A stretch of DNA of 47,452 nucleotides, taken from contig DVDV01000430.1 in NCBI GenBank assembly GCA_015296075.1, forward strand, positions 1 to 47,452, given 5' to 3'. Positions 4,244-45,200 of the stretch are shown here, piece by piece (the first letter of the stretch is position 1; the number at the start of each line of letters is the position of its first letter). The DNA comes from Leptolyngbyaceae cyanobacterium M33_DOE_097. GTDB taxonomy: Bacteria; Cyanobacteriota; Cyanobacteriia; Leptolyngbyales; Leptolyngbyaceae. The translations under genes were made by a program, and so were the position numbers. The notes under the pieces are model-generated. The model made no database searches. It worked only from the letters and a program-made list of their open reading frames with translations, and had not been told where the DNA came from.

Positions 4244-5827
4244 ATGTATCAGCTTAATCCTTTCGACCACGGTTTTTCATCTAATTCTGAATGCCAAGAC
4301 CGGATAGCTCTGGCGATCAGTGCAGCAGAGATTGGCATTTGGGACTGGGATATTCAGGCTAACACCGTTTATTGGAACGTTTTTCACGAGAAGTTTTGGG
4401 GGTATGAACCAAGCTCAGCCTTACGAACTTATGAAGAGTGGGCCAGCCGCGTCCATCCCGAAGATTTAGCAGTGATTGAGTCTCTAATTCAACAAAATTT
4501 AACCAGTACAACTGAACAATTTAAGGTCGAATACCGGGTTTTGCAAGCTGATAGCAGTGTGTGCTGGGTTAAAGCGAATGGTCGTATCTACCGCGCAGCC
4601 AGTGGTGAAGCCAGACGCATGATTGGCACTTTGCTGGACATTACAGACCAGAAGCAAGCCGAGGCCGCCCTCAGAAAGAGTGAAAAGCTAGCCCAATGGC
4701 GCTTAGCAGAGATCGAGTCCATTTACGCTACGGCTCCGGTGGGGCTTTGCTTTCTCGATCGCGAGTTTCACTATCTCCGGATTAATCAGCACCTTGCTGA
4801 GATCAATGGCCTCTCAATTGAGGATCACATCGGTCGCACTGTAAAGGAGGTTTTGCCAGGTTTAGGTGAAGCTCAAGAAGCTTATTTTCAGCAAGTCCTG
4901 GCCAGTGGCGAACCGCTGTTAGATGTTGAAGTGCGAGGCACAACTCCAGCTCAGCCCGGAGTTCAACGCGTCTGGTTGGTCAGCTACTACCCGCTGAAAC
5001 AAACCAACGGGCAACCGATTGGCATCAACATCGTGGCGCAAGAAATTACTGATCGCAAACGGGCTGAGCAAGCCCTCGAAACCCAAAATTTAGAACTGTC
5101 TCGCCTCAATAAGACATTAACAAGTCTGGCAACGCGCTTAAAACAACAGAACCAGGAACTTGATCAATTCACATCGGTCGTTTCGCATGACTTAAAAGCC
5201 CCACTGAGAGGCGTTGCAAATCTGTCTGAGTGGCTCGAAGAAGACTTAGAAGGGCAACTTTCACCCGACAACTACATGCAATTGCGGTTGCTGCGGCAAC
5301 GGGTCAGCCAGATGCAAGCTTTGATTGAGGGGTTATTGCAATATTCGCGCCTCGGCCGCACTCAAGAAGCACTCAAGACAGTCGGTGTGAGAGAGTTACT
5401 CAACGAAGTCATCGATCTGCTCGCACCCCCTCCAACCTTTGTGTTTGATATTTCTCCTGACTTGCCCACCCTACAGGCGAGACGGTTGTTGCTGGCTCAG
5501 GTGTTTACCAACTTGATTGGCAACGCTATTAAGCATCACCCGCGACCGGATGGGCGTATCCAAATTTCGGTGATTGAACATCAGGACTCCTACGAATTTT
5601 TGGTTGCCGATGATGGAGAAGGGATTCCCCAGCAGTACCACGATCGCATCTTCACCATGTTCCAAACGCTCGACAACAAGCAAACCACCACCAACACCGG
5701 AATTGGCTTGGCGATCGTAAAGAAGATTGTGGAATCAGAAGGTGGATCTGTTGCACTTGAGTCAGCTCCCCAGCAAGGCGCAACCTTTCGCTTTACCTGG
5801 CTCAAACAGCCTTTCGTTGATGAGTAA
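4244..5827 (+). CDS. PAS-PAS sensor histidine kinase
   Basis: A soluble sensor kinase of 527 aa. A PAS_3-like domain (about residues 20-135, with GIWDWDIQANTVYWN and the closing IGTLLDITDQK) is followed by a second PAS (about 150-275), a coiled coil (275-310), a HisKA dimerisation domain with SHDLKAPLR and phospho-histidine near 315, and an HATPase_c domain with N box (NLIGNAIKHH), DDGEGI and NTGIGLAIVKK. The HisKA type resembles that of Cph1/bacteriophytochrome kinases. The ATG at 4244 is preferred over an in-frame TTG five codons earlier; no ribosome-binding site is clear. Only 18 bases separate it from the next kinase, with which it shares its whole catalytic half, suggesting an operon and a local duplication. 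Confidence 0.93.
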   Translation: MYQLNPFDHGFSSNSECQDRIALAISAAEIGIWDWDIQANTVYWNVFHEKFWGYEPSSALRTYEEWASRVHPEDLAVIESLIQQNLTSTTEQFKVEYRVLQADSSVCWVKANGRIYRAASGEARRMIGTLLDITDQKQAEAALRKSEKLAQWRLAEIESIYATAPVGLCFLDREFHYLRINQHLAEINGLSIEDHIGRTVKEVLPGLGEAQEAYFQQVLASGEPLLDVEVRGTTPAQPGVQRVWLVSYYPLKQTNGQPIGINIVAQEITDRKRAEQALETQNLELSRLNKTLTSLATRLKQQNQELDQFTSVVSHDLKAPLRGVANLSEWLEEDLEGQLSPDNYMQLRLLRQRVSQMQALIEGLLQYSRLGRTQEALKTVGVRELLNEVIDLLAPPPTFVFDISPDLPTLQARRLLLAQVFTNLIGNAIKHHPRPDGRIQISVIEHQDSYEFLVADDGEGIPQQYHDRIFTMFQTLDNKQTTTNTGIGLAIVKKIVESEGGSVALESAPQQGATFRFTWLKQPFVDE

Positions 5828-5845
5828 CGCTACGTAACTATTGGA

Positions 5846-7639
5846 ATGCCTTCACAACCCTCGCTTCGACCACTGCAAAATTTTTGGCATCAATTATCGC
5901 TCCACCGCCGGGGGGCGATCGCAGCGAGCATTCCAACTCTTTGCTTACTCCTGTCATTGGCGGCTTTTACCTGGCTTGATTACAAAATTAAAGCCTCTCA
6001 AGATTACATCAACTATAAGGAAGCTATTCTCAGTGAAAGTGATGAGTTGCTGGTTGGGTTACTCAATGCTGAGACGGGTATGCGGGGCTATCGTCTGACT
6101 GGGCGAAAAGATTTTCTTGAGCCATACACAATGGCAGTCGGGCAAGTTCCCAAGGCGCTTGAGCGGCTCAAGACCTTAACTCAGGATAACCCTCAGAAAG
6201 AAGCAGAAATCGCAGCCTTGAGTTCTCTAGTTCAGCAACGGCTCAAGTTTCTAGAGGTACGGTTATTAGTGCCGATTACCCAATCCCCTGATGCCGCTCA
6301 ATATGAGGAAAGCAAAGTCGCGATGGATCAGGTGCGAAGGGCGATCGCTAAATTTGAAGCAGATGAACAAAAAGACCTGGAAGCGAACAGAATTGGCTTA
6401 CAAAGACAGCAAGCCCTCACTACGCGTGTGTTGTGGATCAGCGCCGGAGTTAGTGCGATTGGTTCCTTATTTGCAATCTACCTGTTCTCTCAACTCGAAA
6501 AAGAACTCAAACTACGAGAACAGCGATTGAGCGAAAGCAAGACGCTGATTCAGTCCATCACAACGAATGTAGTCGATGGCATTCTGACGCTCAATGCTGC
6601 AGGTAATATTGAGACGTTTAACCCAGCCGGACTCAAAATGTTTGGGTATGAAGGTGAAGATTTATATGACCAACCCATTTCATTGCTGTTGACAAATCCT
6701 ACGCTGAGCAGAGGTGACAATCATTACTGGCAAGACCCGACGACCTACACGGGTGCCCGCTTACAAGCGACTGGTTTTCATAAAGATGGAAAACCCTTTC
6801 CGATCGAAGTGACGGTCAGCGATATACCGCTCGAAGATCGGTTAATCGTCATCATTCGCGATATGACTGAGCAGCAACAGGCGAAAGCAGACCTGCGCGA
6901 TCGCGCTCAAGAGTTAGCGATTCTCAACAGCAAACTCAAAACCACCAACACGATTCTGGCGGCGCGCAATCAGGAGTTAAACCAATTTGCCTACATTGCT
7001 TCCCATGACTTAAAGGCTCCACTACGGGCGATCGCCAACTTGTCTGAGTGGCTTGAAGAAGACTTGGCTGACCAGCTCCCGGCTGAGAACAAGCAGCAGA
7101 TGGACTTACTGCGGGGGCGAGTGCATCGCATGGAAGCGTTAATCAATGGCCTGTTAGCCTATTCACGAGCGGGGCGAGATGAAGTCGCGATCGAATCGGT
7201 CAATGTGGCGGACTTGCTCGAAGAAATTATTGACTTACTAGCCCCCCCTGACACCTTTAAAATCGCGATCGCCCCCAACATGCCGACCTTCTGCGCACGA
7301 CGCTTACTGCTTCGACAAGTTTTCTCTAACTTGATTGACAACGCAATTAAGCATCACCCTACTCAAAATGGGCATATTCAAATTTCAGTCATCGAACAAC
7401 AACAGGCTTATGAGTTTAGTGTGGCCGATGATGGCATTGGAATTGAGCCGCAGTATCACAACAAAATATTTACTATCTTTCAAACGTTAGAAGCCAGAGA
7501 CAAGAAAGAAAGCACAGGAGTTGGACTATCAATCGTTAAAAAAATCGTTGAAGCTGAAGGGGGCACAATTCGGGTTGAATCTCAAGCTCACCAAGGCGCA
7601 ACTTTTTATTTTACCTGGCTAAAATCTTCCCTACGATAG
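5846..7639 (+). CDS. CHASE3-PAS membrane sensor histidine kinase
   Basis: 597 aa. A transmembrane helix at about residues 24-46, an extracytoplasmic CHASE3 domain (with NAETGMRGYRLTG at 74-86), a second helix near 192-214, a PAS domain (about 230-345), a coiled coil, then HisKA with phospho-histidine at about 387 in IASHDLKAPLR, and HATPase_c (NLIDNAIKHH, DDGIGIEPQ, STGVGLSIVKK). CHASE3 domains sense signals outside the cytoplasm, ligand generally unknown. The catalytic half is closely similar to that of the preceding kinase (both have ANLSEWLEEDL), whereas the sensor halves are unrelated. This looks like duplication followed by sensor swap. Confidence 0.94.
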   Translation: MPSQPSLRPLQNFWHQLSLHRRGAIAASIPTLCLLLSLAAFTWLDYKIKASQDYINYKEAILSESDELLVGLLNAETGMRGYRLTGRKDFLEPYTMAVGQVPKALERLKTLTQDNPQKEAEIAALSSLVQQRLKFLEVRLLVPITQSPDAAQYEESKVAMDQVRRAIAKFEADEQKDLEANRIGLQRQQALTTRVLWISAGVSAIGSLFAIYLFSQLEKELKLREQRLSESKTLIQSITTNVVDGILTLNAAGNIETFNPAGLKMFGYEGEDLYDQPISLLLTNPTLSRGDNHYWQDPTTYTGARLQATGFHKDGKPFPIEVTVSDIPLEDRLIVIIRDMTEQQQAKADLRDRAQELAILNSKLKTTNTILAARNQELNQFAYIASHDLKAPLRAIANLSEWLEEDLADQLPAENKQQMDLLRGRVHRMEALINGLLAYSRAGRDEVAIESVNVADLLEEIIDLLAPPDTFKIAIAPNMPTFCARRLLLRQVFSNLIDNAIKHHPTQNGHIQISVIEQQQAYEFSVADDGIGIEPQYHNKIFTIFQTLEARDKKESTGVGLSIVKKIVEAEGGTIRVESQAHQGATFYFTWLKSSLR

Positions 7640-27252: not shown

Positions 27253-27738
27253 CTAGCTGAGAGCAACATGACTGCGGTCATAAGCCCAGAAGCTGGGTTG
27301 AATCTTGCCTTGAATGTGAGTCCAGTAGCCAGTAGTTTCGGTGTTTAGACCCACTTCATGTGCAACCCGGCTGAGCAACACTTGTTGACGCTTTTTGGTT
27401 GCACGATGATGATTTTGAACCAGAGTGCGTGCTTTCTCTTCAAAGGTCAAGGCAGGTTGAGTAGCGGCAACCACTTGGGGTTGTGCTTCAACTTTTGGTT
27501 GAGCCATAGGCTGAGTTGTATAAGCAACACCTCTGTATTTCAGAGTGGTTCCCGCCGGGATGCTTTGGATGCTAGCAACAGGCTGGGCTTGATAGGGAAG
27601 CCCCCGATAGCGCAGGACTGCATTTAAGGATTTCGTATTGGCCTTCTCATTCTGACGAACGTTTGCGCCGTGAAACCGGGCATCGGTCAGTTGAGCAGGG
27701 GTCATTTCATAGCTGATACCACGATAGGTAAGTTTCAT
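27253..27738 (-). CDS. DUF4278 domain protein
   Basis: 161 aa. DUF4278 is a short motif of the form LxYRGxxY. It occurs three times here: LTYRGISYE at residues 3-11, LRYRGLPYQ near 42-50 and LKYRGVAYT near 66-74. The C-terminal half (about 100-161) is helical and basic (HHRATKKRQQVLLSRVAHEVG) followed by an aromatic tail. Function is unknown; the family is common and often multi-copy in cyanobacteria. A good AGGAGG-type ribosome-binding site precedes the ATG. A second, shorter member lies at 36525-36698. Confidence 0.88.
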   Translation of the reverse strand: MKLTYRGISYEMTPAQLTDARFHGANVRQNEKANTKSLNAVLRYRGLPYQAQPVASIQSIPAGTTLKYRGVAYTTQPMAQPKVEAQPQVVAATQPALTFEEKARTLVQNHHRATKKRQQVLLSRVAHEVGLNTETTGYWTHIQGKIQPSFWAYDRSHVALS

Positions 27739-27964
27739 ATTCCGCCTCCTAGTTGAATGTTGCGTTTCAGTTATGAGGCGCGTTCCTTCGGGTTTCTCCC
27801 CTACTTCCGTCTTCCACTACCCTGACCTCTTTGAATCGAGGGGGAATTTGGAAGATGAACGATTTCATTTCTGTATCCATTATTACAGAAATTTCTGGAA
27901 AAGTCTATCTTTGCAAAAATTAATCTCGCGATCGCGCCAACTAATTCCCCAGGCTTGCCGTCCC

Positions 27965-40228: not shown

Positions 40229-42061
40229 TCAAAAATCGGTGTGTTCCGTTTGAGCAATTCGCAGTCGCTCTAGCACTTCAGGCACCGCGATCGCGCCCAA
40301 TTCGCCAGCAGCCCGTGTACGAATGCTGAGTGCGTTGGCTTCAACCTCTTTCGCACCGACAACACTCATCACAGGGATTTTGTCTTTCTCGGCGTTGCGA
40401 ATCAGTTTACCAAGGCGATCGCCACTGGTATCGACTTCGGCACGCACACCCAGAGCCAGCATCTTGCTCACTACTTCTCTGGCAAACGGTAACTGCTCCT
40501 CACCTACAGGCAACAGGCGCACCTGCACGGGAGCCAACCAGAAGGGAAAATCTCCGGCGTACTCTTCGATCAAAATGCCAATCAGCCGTTCAAGCGAACC
40601 AAATGGCGCGCGGTGAATCATGACGGGGCGTTGACGGGTGCCGTCTTCGGCCACGTACTCTAACTCAAACCGTTCTGGCAAGTTATAGTCAACCTGCACA
40701 GTTCCCAGTTGCCACTCCCGCTCCAGTGCGTCCTGGAAGATGAAATCAAGCTTAGGACCATAGAATGCCGCCTCACCGACCCCTTCAAAGGTTGGTAGCC
40801 CCAACGTTTCGGCAGCCTTACGAATGGCAAACTCCGCCTTGTTCCACGCATCATCGGAGCCGATGTACTTGTCTAACGCGGGATCGCGGAAACTGAGGCG
40901 AGCGCGGAAATTCTTGAGTTGCAAACTCTTGAAGACCGTCAAGATTAGATCCACCACTTTGAGAAATTCATCCTCAAGTTGGTCAGGTGTGACAAACAGG
41001 TGAGAGTCATCAACCGTGAAGCCTCGTACACGAGTCAAGCCACCCAGTTCGCCCGATTGTTCATAGCGGTAGACGGTGCCAAACTCTGCTAACCGCATCG
41101 GCAACTCACGATAAGAGCGCAACTCACTCTTATAGATCTGAATGTGGAAGGGACAGTTCATCGGCTTCAGCGCAAACCCCTGCTCAAGCAAGCGGGCTGC
41201 ATCATCCTCAGCCATCATCGGAAACATATCTTCTTTGTAGTTTTGCCAGTGACCCGAAATCTTAAACAGGTCAACCCGCCCAATATGAGGAGTCACAACT
41301 GGCAAGTAACCCCGCTTGAGTTGCTCTTGCTTGAGGAAATCTTCGAGGGTCGATCGCAAGACCGTTCCCTTTGGAGTCCACAGTGGCAAACCAGGCCCAA
41401 CCGGGTCAGCAAAGATAAACAAACCCAGCTCTTTACCCAGTTTGCGGTGGTCGCGACGCAGCGCTTCCTCTTTACGGCGTTTGTACTCAGCAAGCTGCTC
41501 CGGCGACTCCCAGGCAGTGCCATAAATGCGTTGCAACTGAGCTTTGGTTTCATCTCCGCGCCAGTAAGCACCCGCAACCGTTTCTAACTCGAACGCATCG
41601 GGGTTAATATCTCCCGTAGTCTCAACGTGAGGCCCCGCACACAGATCCCACCACGCTTCGCCCAGGTGGTAGATCGTGATTGGATCACCCTTAATATCGG
41701 CCAAAATTTCGAGTTTATACGGCTCGTTAATCGCCTTAATCCGCCGTTCGGCCTCTTCGCGCGTTACTTCTTCGCGAATTACAGGCAACTTGCGCTTGAT
41801 GATTTTCACCATCTCTTTCTTGATGGCTTTCAAATCCTTCTCGGTAAACGGCTCTGGACTATCAAAGTCATAGTAAAAGCCATTCTCAATCCAGGGACCA
41901 ATCGTGACTTGCGCCTTTGGAAACAGCTTTTGAACCGCCATCGCCATGATGTGCGAGGTGGTGTGGCGAATTTTTTTTAACGGCTCTGAAGCACTGGTTT
42001 TAGGTAAATGAATCTTTTCAGGCGGATTTTGCTCGTTATTTTCAGCATTCTCAGCAGACAT
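40229..42061 (-). CDS. thrS: Threonyl-tRNA synthetase
   Basis: 610 aa. The protein starts with a short polar leader, then the editing (N2) domain with RHTTSHIMAMAVQKLFPKAQ (the HxxxH zinc motif near 43-47). The class II catalytic core carries motif 2 (LAEFGTVYRYEQSGELGGL) and motif 3 near VMIHRAPFGSLERLIGILI. The C-terminal anticodon-binding domain (about 505-600) contains VRLLPVGEEQ and RLGKLIRNAEKDKIP. The N-terminal TGS (N1) domain of E. coli ThrRS is absent, as in other cyanobacterial ThrRS. The start at 42061 has GGAG upstream; an ATG nine codons earlier is less likely. Confidence 0.97.
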   Translation of the reverse strand: MSAENAENNEQNPPEKIHLPKTSASEPLKKIRHTTSHIMAMAVQKLFPKAQVTIGPWIENGFYYDFDSPEPFTEKDLKAIKKEMVKIIKRKLPVIREEVTREEAERRIKAINEPYKLEILADIKGDPITIYHLGEAWWDLCAGPHVETTGDINPDAFELETVAGAYWRGDETKAQLQRIYGTAWESPEQLAEYKRRKEEALRRDHRKLGKELGLFIFADPVGPGLPLWTPKGTVLRSTLEDFLKQEQLKRGYLPVVTPHIGRVDLFKISGHWQNYKEDMFPMMAEDDAARLLEQGFALKPMNCPFHIQIYKSELRSYRELPMRLAEFGTVYRYEQSGELGGLTRVRGFTVDDSHLFVTPDQLEDEFLKVVDLILTVFKSLQLKNFRARLSFRDPALDKYIGSDDAWNKAEFAIRKAAETLGLPTFEGVGEAAFYGPKLDFIFQDALEREWQLGTVQVDYNLPERFELEYVAEDGTRQRPVMIHRAPFGSLERLIGILIEEYAGDFPFWLAPVQVRLLPVGEEQLPFAREVVSKMLALGVRAEVDTSGDRLGKLIRNAEKDKIPVMSVVGAKEVEANALSIRTRAAGELGAIAVPEVLERLRIAQTEHTDF

Positions 42062-42510
42062 GGGACAACTCCAAAAATGTTGGGACAAACAGCGATCGCG
42101 AATGATTTGGGGGCGCTTAGAGCTGCCCCTCGCTAGTTCGCGTTCTGCGACTCACATTTCTCTGCGTAGACAATAACCGGAGTTCCCAAACAACCATGAA
42201 CCCAAACTTTAGCTAAATGACTTCTCAGTTTAACGCACTGCCATGATCTCAAAGCTTGAACTGTGTAGGAGGCAGCTGACAAATTTTGCTCCCACGACCT
42301 GCAACTTACAAGTTGCAAAAACCAACGATCGATTCAGCTGATGATGAACGGTGCTTACTTTATTTTAACGAGTTAATGAGCAATCAAACGGAGTAATTGA
42401 GCAGCGATGGGGAAACAGGTTCAATCATTCTTAAGAATTGTAAAGAATATTAAAAGACGCTAAGATAAACTGAGAACAGAACGTTAATCTAGGTTGTACT
42501 TAGGGGCACA
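42062..42510. other. Divergent spacer between thrS and DUF2605 gene
   Basis: About 450 bases. A 61-codon minus-strand frame (42133-42318) shows no family and no ribosome-binding site. A weak GGGGGC/GCCCCT stem lies near 42109-42128. I see no T-box; cyanobacteria normally lack them. Confidence 0.45.
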
Positions 42511-43100: not shown

Positions 43101-43403
43101 ATGTTACTGCACCTGCTTTACGTTATCGCCTTTACCATTCTGGCGGTTTTGGCAGTTGGTAACTTGATCCGAAACTTGATGACTCTGGGTTTTGAGTCGC
43201 AGCGTGCAGGCATGGGCAACTCACCTAACTCTGGTCGTAAGCGGATGCCATCTCATCCTGAGTTGTTAGACGCAAAGGGTAATGTGATCGATGAGCCGCT
43301 TTTAGTGATGCGTTCAATGAGTGTTGAGGATGCTCGTGAGCGCTTAGATGCGATTTTTGAAGCGTCTCCCAGCCCTTCTAATGAAACGCGGGAAGAATCC
43401 TAG
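43101..43403 (+). CDS. DUF2973 family membrane protein
   Basis: 100 aa. One N-terminal membrane helix (about 1-22, LLYVIAFTILAVLAVGNLI) is followed by a cytosolic tail. HPELLDAKGNVIDEPLLVMR (about 52-71) and SVEDARERLDAIFEASP match DUF2973, a cyanobacteria-specific family of unknown role. A 19-base gap separates it from the GTPase gene, so they are likely co-transcribed. Confidence 0.9.
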   Translation: MLLHLLYVIAFTILAVLAVGNLIRNLMTLGFESQRAGMGNSPNSGRKRMPSHPELLDAKGNVIDEPLLVMRSMSVEDARERLDAIFEASPSPSNETREES

Positions 43404-43422
43404 CTGCATTGCTTGGTGACGC

Positions 43423-44736
43423 ATGGTTGAAGATAAAAGCGATCAAAATCAACCGGCAGACTTAGCTGAATCGGCTAAATCAGATTTACGCCACTTTGAC
43501 ATGGCTGAGGGCATTCTCCAACTTCGCGATGCGATGATGAGCGGTTGGGGAAAGCTACCTTTTGTTCCGTGGGTGGTGCGATCGCTCACGGATTGGTTTT
43601 CGGTGAGTGAGGCGCAGGTTGAAGAGATTTTGAAGCAGGTTCGCTCGGAGCTACCAACGACGGAGGCGCTACTGGTTGGCAAGCCCCAGGCGGGTAAAAG
43701 CTCGATTGTTCGTGGTTTAACGGGTGTTTCAGCCGAGATTGTGGGGCAGGGGTTCAAGCCTCATACACGCCACACCCAGCAGTACGCTTATCCCGTGGAT
43801 GACCTGCCCCTCTTGCTCTTCACTGACACCGTTGGCCTGGGTGACATCACCCGCGACACGCCCATTATGGTTGAAGAACTGTTAGGCGAGCTGAGTCAAC
43901 GCGACGAAAAGCCTAAAGCTCAAGTCATTATTTTAACGATCAAAATTACCGATTTTGCGACGGATACTCTGCATCAAATCGCTAGCCAGATTCGCAAAAG
44001 TTACCCTCAAGTGCCGTGTCTACTGGCAGTGACTTGCCTGCACGAAGTCTATCCCCCGGAGGTAGATAACCACCCGCCCTACCCGCCTGAGCTGGAGCCA
44101 ATTGAGCGTGCCTTCACAGCAATTCAACAATCCTTTGCGGGGCTGTTCGATCGCGCGGTGTTGCTCGACTTTACCTTAGAGGGAGATGGGTTTGAGCCAA
44201 CCTTTTATGGTCTAGAAATGTTGGTCAACAGTCTGGCTGAGCTTTTGCCTGACGCAGAAGCGGAGGCGATGCAGCAGTTACTCAAGGGTGAGCCGGGGAA
44301 ACAACTCAGTGATGTCTATCGCGAGGCAGGCAGGCGGTATATTTTGCCTTTTGCGATTATGGCAGCCGGACTTGCGGCTGTGCCCTTACCCTTTGCTACG
44401 ATGCCTGTTTTGACCGCCCTGCAAATCTCAATGGTGGGGTTATTGGGCAAACTGTATGGGCAAACGATTAGCCCTTCCCAAGCCGGGGGTATTGTCACCG
44501 CGATCGCAGGTGGATTTTTAGCGCAGGCGATCGGCCGCGAATTGGTGAAGTTCATTCCAGGTTTAGGCAGTATTATTGCAGCGTCTTGGGCTGGGGCTTA
44601 CACTTGGGCTTTAGGCGAGGCCGCTTGTGTCTACTTTGGTGACTTAATGGGCGGTACAAAACCAGATGCCCAAAAAATTCAAGCGGTGATGCGTGAGTCC
44701 TTTGACGCTGCAAAAGAACGTTTTCGTCAGCGTTAG
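43423..44736 (+). CDS. Membrane-associated GTPase with DUF697-like C-terminus
   Basis: 437 aa. A GTPase domain (about 80-285) shows a P-loop GKPQAGKSS (86-94) and G3 DTVGLGD (135-141). The guanine-specifying G4 motif (N/TKxD) is not evident; the equivalent strand reads LLAVTCLHE (about 200-208). The C-terminal region (about 305-410) has glycine/alanine-rich hydrophobic helices (FAIMAAGLAAVPLPFATMP and GRELVKFIPGLGSIIAASWA) like DUF697 of the YcjF group, suggesting membrane insertion. It follows the DUF2973 membrane protein closely. The cellular role is unknown; it may act at the thylakoid or plasma membrane. Confidence 0.88.
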   Translation: MVEDKSDQNQPADLAESAKSDLRHFDMAEGILQLRDAMMSGWGKLPFVPWVVRSLTDWFSVSEAQVEEILKQVRSELPTTEALLVGKPQAGKSSIVRGLTGVSAEIVGQGFKPHTRHTQQYAYPVDDLPLLLFTDTVGLGDITRDTPIMVEELLGELSQRDEKPKAQVIILTIKITDFATDTLHQIASQIRKSYPQVPCLLAVTCLHEVYPPEVDNHPPYPPELEPIERAFTAIQQSFAGLFDRAVLLDFTLEGDGFEPTFYGLEMLVNSLAELLPDAEAEAMQQLLKGEPGKQLSDVYREAGRRYILPFAIMAAGLAAVPLPFATMPVLTALQISMVGLLGKLYGQTISPSQAGGIVTAIAGGFLAQAIGRELVKFIPGLGSIIAASWAGAYTWALGEAACVYFGDLMGGTKPDAQKIQAVMRESFDAAKERFRQR

Positions 44737-44798
44737 ACTCATTTCCACAGCTATCGGTGGCGATCGCAGTCAGCTCCACCCAACGCCCTATAAATCAT

Positions 44799-45200
44799 TT
44801 AGGCGGCTTGAAAGCGGGGATTTTGCTTCAACTCGCTTAGTTGAAAACTCTGCGCCCATTGAATCAGAGCATCTGCTAAAACGTCTTCTTGAGGCTGCAA
44901 CAGCAACGCCGTGTATTGTGATTTTTGCTTAACAACCAGGGCACAATACGCTTCTCCGCGAATCGTTGCATGCTGAAACCCTTCTACTCGCAAAGAAGAC
45001 ATTAACAGCGATCGCAAACCTAAAGCCTGAAAAATTGTCTGTACCCAGCACATGTTAGCGGCCTCAGAGGTGATGAAATATTCTTTGGGCAATCCATTTA
45101 AATCAAAAACAGCAGCACCCACAATCATGTCTGTGTATTGCATGGGTGTCTCCAACGTGGAAGCAATAAATGAGGTGTCAACAGGAGCAAAAGTAGACAT
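44799..45200 (-). CDS. Roadblock/LC7-like cyanobacterial protein
   Basis: 133 aa, soluble. The order of elements (GAAVFDLNGLPKEYFITSE, then a helix WVQTIFQALGLRSLL, then RGEAYCALVVKQKSQYTALLL) resembles the Roadblock/LC7 fold of MglB-type proteins that regulate small GTPases. The match is by pattern and not certain. It is convergent with the GTPase gene at 43423, which makes a functional link worth testing. An alternative start lies at residue 20 (MQYTDMIVG). Confidence 0.7.
   Translation of the reverse strand: MSTFAPVDTSFIASTLETPMQYTDMIVGAAVFDLNGLPKEYFITSEAANMCWVQTIFQALGLRSLLMSSLRVEGFQHATIRGEAYCALVVKQKSQYTALLLQPQEDVLADALIQWAQSFQLSELKQNPRFQAA

Follow-up and report, generated by a model that had tools for sequence, protein, structure and literature searches.

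An NTPase family with an invariant G4 replacement and its gene neighbourhood in a leptolyngbyacean cyanobacterium

Do three neighbouring genes of a cyanobacterium, coding for a GTPase-like protein, a small DUF2973 protein and a Roadblock-like protein, belong together functionally, and what does it mean for the first of them that it lacks the motif by which GTPases recognize guanine? These questions are raised by a locus in a 47,452-nucleotide stretch (the window) of contig DVDV01000430.1 from the 6.96 Mb genome of Leptolyngbyaceae cyanobacterium M33_DOE_097 (assembly GCA_015296075.1). A first-pass annotation had suggested that the three genes could make up an undescribed membrane GTPase module, by analogy with the MglA/MglB systems. 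Any functional handle on DUF2973 and on DUF2605, a further family encoded at the locus, would be useful, since a literature search, which did not reach most subscription journals, found no paper on either of them.

Layout of the locus and conservation of the gene cluster

The DUF2973 gene, the GTPase-like gene (hereafter the NTPase gene) and the opposing ORF were all found at the positions given in the first-pass annotation (Table 1). DUF2973 closely precedes the NTPase gene, with 19 nt between its stop codon and the NTPase ATG, and the Roadblock-like gene does face the NTPase gene from the opposite strand, their stop codons being 62 nt apart. The DUF2605 gene, which had been missed, belongs to the same cluster as DUF2973 and the NTPase gene. 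In the scans for transcription signals the number of promoter sites was lower than in shuffled sequences, and that of terminators was about the same as in the shuffles. Elsewhere in the window there is a glutamine riboswitch (RF01739, positions 27777-27863, minus strand, 56.2 bits vs 35); it immediately precedes a DUF4278 gene (27253-27738, minus strand).

Table 1. Features of the NTPase locus (positions in the window)
Feature	Position	Strand	Evidence or remark
thrS (threonyl-tRNA synthetase), divergent upstream neighbour, outside the cluster	40229..42088	-	PF00587 E 9.6e-45
DUF2605 protein, 107 aa	42511..42834	+	PF10792 E 7.4e-43; first gene of the cluster
DUF2973 protein, 100 aa	43101..43403	+	PF11189 E 1.2e-27, 96.2 bits vs cut-off 22.2
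TRAFAC-type NTPase, 437 aa, with DUF697-like C-terminal hydrophobic helical region	43423..44736	+	MMR_HSR1 (PF01926) 33.7 bits vs cut-off 21.9
G1 / P-loop GKPQAGKSS, NTPase residues 86-94	43678..43704	+	G86, K87, G91, K92, S93, S94 in 144/145 distinct rows, one gap
G3 DTVGLGD, NTPase residues 135-141	43825..43845	+	D135, G138, L139, G140 in 144/145 distinct rows, one gap
Segment at the G4 place, TCLHEVYP, NTPase residues 204-211	44032..44055	+	stands instead of N/TKxD
Segment near the expected G5 place, DFTLEGD, NTPase residues 249-255	44167..44187	+	D249, F250, T251, D255 in 145/145; putative G5, assigned by position
DUF697-like hydrophobic helical region, NTPase residues 298-431	44314..44715	+	PF05128 27.4 bits
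Roadblock/longin-fold protein (predicted fold), 133 aa, convergent neighbour, outside the cluster	44799..45200	-	no Pfam family over cut-off

Among the loci examined, the association of DUF2973 with the NTPase was complete in two cyanobacterial families and absent from those of other families. In the family of the window (f1) DUF2973 lies directly upstream of the NTPase gene in 26 of 26 genomes, the window included; these are all the f1 genomes of the class sample, and each of them has the NTPase. DUF2605 accompanies the pair in 23 of the 25 f1 loci besides the window. In a second family, f18, DUF2973 was upstream of the NTPase gene in 18 of the 18 loci examined, and DUF2605 was also present in 18/18 (17 loci were counted by a distance rule, in the eighteenth, G360, the NTPase is split over two frames; G349, with a partial NTPase, was left out of the count). 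When the two families are pooled with the window, the DUF2973-NTPase arrangement was found in 44/44 loci, 42 of which have DUF2605 as well, and this gene order ties together widespread cyanobacterial proteins of unknown function. Co-occurrence, the test named in the first-pass annotation, thus held for DUF2973 and the NTPase in f1 (25/25 besides the window) and f18, but not in other families, where DUF2973 was upstream of the NTPase gene in 0/30 loci; in 28 of the 30 the upstream sequence reaches 700 bases or more. Among 80 named loci, 76 with 700 bases upstream, the cluster was seen in 13 and the link was absent from 67. In a sample of the phylum DUF2973 occurred in 89 and DUF2605 in 79 of 194 genomes, every one in the class of the window; by coordinates, these two genes were often side by side, and the NTPase gene was beside DUF2973 only in f1 (G000, G060, G185).

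The surroundings of the cluster served as a control for slow decay of gene order. No downstream ORF (at least 90 aa, within 2.5 kb of the NTPase gene) was common to more than 3 of the 25 f1 loci. The thrS gene adjoins the cluster in 19/25 f1 loci vs 1/18 f18 loci (three of the 18 have less than 400 bases upstream of DUF2605), and the order DUF2605-DUF2973-NTPase is kept in f18 despite this difference. Some candidate start codons for the NTPase precede the stop codon of DUF2973 in several genomes of f18, an arrangement compatible with translational coupling of the two genes in that family.

In a tree of 73 NTPases, 43 of them linked, the distribution of the linkage required 3 changes as opposed to a mean of 23.5 when shuffled, and a tree that keeps all linked copies together was 24.65 log units better than the tree obtained by a quick free search (p-AU 0.864). 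These trees are compatible with a single origin of the linkage. It must be noted that a linkage arising from one event could have persisted by operon inertia, which counts against a partnership of the two proteins. Two f18 genomes, G089 (L338 2078-2734) and G179 (L339 2298-2984), have DUF2605-DUF2973 without a downstream NTPase gene, in both cases followed by a 772-aa frame on the opposite strand, and 33 of the 89 phylum-sample genomes with DUF2973 have no strong NTPase match (E <= 1e-50, counted by hand), thus DUF2973 works without the NTPase. Since the two genes are not neighbours in the loci examined from families other than f1 and f18, a general partnership cannot be claimed. Clustering of the neighbours of 72 unlinked NTPase genes revealed no widely shared gene: the largest groups, ORFs overlapping the NTPase gene being excluded, were found in 17 and in 15 loci, where neither their position nor their strand was constant, and the next group, a gene of about 330 aa located downstream on the opposite strand, in 11 loci.

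The NTPase family and its G4 segment

An ortholog of the NTPase was detected in 134 of 242 Cyanobacteriia genomes (profile of 26 orthologs, E <= 1e-60), with one match per genome except for one split match. In the phylum sample 73/194 genomes had some match at E <= 1e-5; 56 of the 73 matches were strong (E <= 1e-50, counted by hand) and the others were mostly partial or distant. Judged by these profile searches, the NTPase is one ortholog family conserved in cyanobacteria, and its full-length members have so far been found only in Cyanobacteriia, the systematic search having been made within the phylum. In two loci, L049 (G170) and L273 (G135), a second, diverged gene with a partial match to the NTPase lies about 2 kb or less from the main gene. 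There was no sign of a phage or mobile origin of the NTPase gene: no phage record matches, and the five matching plasmid records do so over at most a third of the protein at less than 36% identity. Nor was assignment to a defence system taken up, the sole PADLOC match being LeoBC over residues 59-124 of 437 (E 1.6e-6).

That the protein belongs with the GTPases was a correct call: its MMR_HSR1 match is over the cut-off, and the G1 and G3 motifs are intact (Table 1). The DUF697-like region has hydrophobic peaks, which span residues 307-342; its match to PF05128 is marginal, falling just below the curated cut-off of 27.7 bits when the protein is scored alone and reaching 30.9 when the neighbours in frame are added. 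The AlphaFold2 model (42 sequences) has a mean pLDDT of 52.9, with only parts of the G domain modelled well and residues 288-414 under 50, hence no conclusion on the putative membrane region or on the nucleotide pocket can be drawn from it. In this low-confidence model the G domain, approximately residues 74-281 only, shares its fold with YsxC/EngB, Arf and IRG proteins (Z 12-14; the best match is YsxC, Z 14.0 over 161 residues), a likeness of fold that shows no function; the absence of a structure from the VIA-align lists was not taken as evidence. We assign the protein to the TRAFAC/Era-like class of P-loop NTPases; its C-terminal hydrophobic region is of the DUF697 type, and the protein is probably membrane-bound.

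The first-pass annotation was right in finding no N/TKxD motif. It had called the G4 motif degenerate, a description that we reject because the replacement is invariant across the family. Throughout the family T-[CS]-x-H-x-x-Y has taken the place of N/TKxD: T204, H207 and Y210 are present in 145/145 distinct NTPase sequences, TCLHE stands at the G4 place in 127 of the 145, and neither NKxD nor TKxD occurs in any of them. Among the 144 distinct rows without a gap at these places, there is likewise no exception at the Lys and Ser of the P-loop, at Thr115 or at the Asp and Gly of G3. With its non-canonical G4 fixed throughout, this family of P-loop NTPases offers a clean test of how nucleotide specificity can change in the GTPase superfamily.

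Two comparisons bear on the history of this segment. The genome of the window has six DUF697 matches, the NTPase among them, and the three of the five other proteins that were read, all full-length, have NKTD, NKQD and NKVD. These DUF697 (PF05128) GTPases resemble the NTPase in their arrangement, with a hydrophobic helical region of DUF697 type coming after the G domain; they differ from it in their NKxD, where the NTPase family has T-x-x-H-x-x-Y, and in that the NTPase matches DUF697 only at the cut-off. Among distant cyanobacterial relatives of the NTPase (mostly 25-32% identity; L265-L272, L275) the G4 forms extend from TKCD and THCD at one end to TQCL and TQTT at the other, and one of these proteins has VLTKCDEVSPP aligned where the NTPase family has AVTCLHEVYPP. 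Given the NKxD of the same-genome paralogs and the TKCDEVSPP of the distant relative, the G4 change looks derived and specific, and the range of forms in the distant relatives may trace how the motif was lost. One paper on cyanobacteria mentions a DUF697 gene as a PCR target (PMC8091003).

A proposed role for the NTPase

The nucleotide specificity of the NTPase is uncertain; from the G4 segment we infer that guanine specificity has either changed or is reached in another way. A precedent is offered by YchF/Ola1, described in a review as an ATPase that has NxxE in place of NKxD, the G4 change being called likely responsible for the altered nucleotide specificity (PMC8779481). Both YchF/Ola1 and the NTPase are P-loop members of the GTPase superfamily in which a replacement at G4 has become fixed, but YchF/Ola1 has coiled coil and TGS domains (PMC8779481) and other replacement residues.

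We propose that the cluster encodes a membrane NTPase with changed or differently achieved specificity, with DUF2973 as its partner and with an NTP-driven action at the membrane, a reading whose chances, taken as a whole, we regard as about even. The NTPase would be associated with the membrane and would bind and hydrolyse a nucleoside triphosphate, and hydrolysis would drive insertion or a conformational change of its C-terminal helices at the membrane. The DUF2973 protein, which is small and has one predicted hydrophobic helix (N-terminal stretch, residues 1-19, mean hydropathy 2.59), would be a co-expressed partner or an anchor for the NTPase, and DUF2605 might be a further partner, a soluble one. 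Elsewhere among the cyanobacteria the NTPase would do its work without its gene being linked to the other two. The Roadblock-like gene, which is often found in convergent orientation to DUF2973, would be independent and would not encode the regulator of the NTPase.

A more far-reaching version, which we put forward as a tentative and rather doubtful idea, sees in these proteins ancient cyanobacterial membrane NTPases in which T-x-x-H-E-x-Y took the place of the guanine-reading motif on a single occasion and has been kept ever since. Instead of GTP they would sense another nucleotide, either ATP or one used in signalling, and they would act on the membrane through a dedicated single-helix partner, DUF2973, together with DUF2605.

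Among the alternatives, the one that survives best makes the NTPase a DUF697 GTPase of the usual, GTP-specific kind. It would recognize guanine through the H/E pair or by contacts of the backbone, its specificity would be unaffected by the altered motif, and the gene cluster would be just a housekeeping operon. Some IRG/GBP GTPases use G4 forms other than NKxD, and the full-length low-confidence model of the NTPase is closest to IRG and GBP GTPases; this and the intact P-loop and G3 agree with such a view, against which stands the His found in every one of the 145 sequences at the place of the guanine-reading Asp, a residue kept by the three same-genome paralogs. It is a possible explanation that we nevertheless consider unlikely. 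We find it improbable that the protein is a pseudo-NTPase, binding nucleotide weakly or not at all and serving as a structural membrane protein or a scaffold: the non-canonical G4 and the altered region near the G5 place could be understood in this way, but the invariance of the P-loop, Thr115 and G3 residues would be unusual for a dead pocket.

The Roadblock-like neighbour

The protein encoded opposite to the NTPase was annotated as Roadblock/LC7-like, a description supported by its predicted fold but not by a sequence match to Robl_LC7. It has no Robl_LC7, NCBIfam or PDB-sequence match, and seven members of its family gave no match to PF03259 at E <= 1. A profile of 67 family members matched 28 cyanobacterial Robl_LC7 proteins weakly (E 0.013, probability 3.3%, 70 columns), in the expected register; this was the best of five profiles tried, and four controls gave E values of 0.17-0.8. 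A scan of viral contigs found no relative of the protein, thus only three sequences were usable for the AlphaFold2 model (pLDDT 68.4), in which the order of elements is strand-strand-helix-strand-strand-strand-helix with the first helix in pieces. The Foldseek list was headed by Rag/Ragulator and Roadblock entries and also contains MglB; the best E value, 4.1e-4, belongs to a chain of a Rag complex, and an Asgard Roadblock protein has 6.6e-4. VIA-align gave Z values up to 8.7 with longin-fold proteins tied, so that Roadblock and longin are not separated. As far as can be judged from the model, the fold is Roadblock/longin. The family was found in 103 of the 242 Cyanobacteriia genomes, in five of them by weak matches. 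In one genome, G008 (L039 4275-5057, plus strand), the open frame of the Roadblock-like protein extends over 261 codons, and the additional N-terminal part matches no Pfam family.

The co-occurrence with the NTPase that the first-pass annotation would lead one to expect was absent over the 242 genomes: 62 have both proteins, 41 only the Roadblock-like protein, 72 only the NTPase and 67 neither (Fisher p = 0.24, phylogeny ignored; 61/37/73/71 and p = 0.087, also with phylogeny ignored, when the five weak Roadblock-like matches are dropped). There is no f18 genome among the 103 with a Roadblock-like protein, though the cluster is intact in f18. In f1 the Roadblock-like gene adjoins the NTPase gene in only 3 of 26 genomes, namely that of the window, G243 and G373, the last being of the same genus as the window. 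The two genes are on opposite strands, and convergent genes share no transcript.

MglA/MglB and the Streptomyces conservons (PMC4316618) resemble this locus in having a G-domain protein near a Roadblock-fold protein, but MglA is a small Ras-superfamily GTPase, whereas the NTPase of the window has 437 aa, a DUF697-like region and no conserved pairing. The genome of the window has no Robl_LC7 (PF03259) match over the cut-off, the best, of 12 bits, lying elsewhere in the genome; with Arf (PF00025), the sole small-GTPase model searched, it has two marginal matches (25.3 and 22.7 vs 22.3) in frames of 343 and 1052 aa. With the lack of association over the 242 genomes and the absence from f18 also taken into account, an MglA/MglB-like module was rejected.

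What does recur is the vicinity of the Roadblock-like gene to DUF2973. Loci from 66 of the 103 genomes with the Roadblock-like family were examined, and in 13 of them the two genes were convergent; these 13 are distributed over six families (f1, f4, f5, f8, f39 and f49), which is more than random placement gives. The NTPase gene lies between them in 2 of the 13 loci; the other 11 are without an NTPase gene in the stretch fetched. Apart from the thrS-DUF2605-DUF2973 block, other neighbours of the Roadblock-like gene were seen in at most 14 of the 66 loci. The recurrent neighbourhood with DUF2973 is real. The predicted fold and this neighbourhood notwithstanding, we think it very unlikely, in view of the missing co-occurrence, the intact f18 clusters and the 11 convergent loci without an NTPase gene, that the Roadblock-like protein is a GAP or a platform for the NTPase in a membrane module with DUF2973. 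Its part in the proposed three-part module fails, regulation of the NTPase by it is unsupported, and where its gene faces the NTPase gene it is mostly an incidental neighbour. The true partners of the Roadblock-like protein may be signalling genes.

This suggestion comes from two arrangements noted at Roadblock-like loci. In L223 of f5 a gene with receiver-like, GAF and histidine kinase parts (5350-7161) directly precedes the Roadblock-like frame, with a gap of -7. In three f26 loci (L042 5149-6567, L189 7663-9084 and L207 4841-6259) a gene whose product on visual inspection resembles a class III cyclase stands directly before the Roadblock-like frame, with gaps of -9 to 4.
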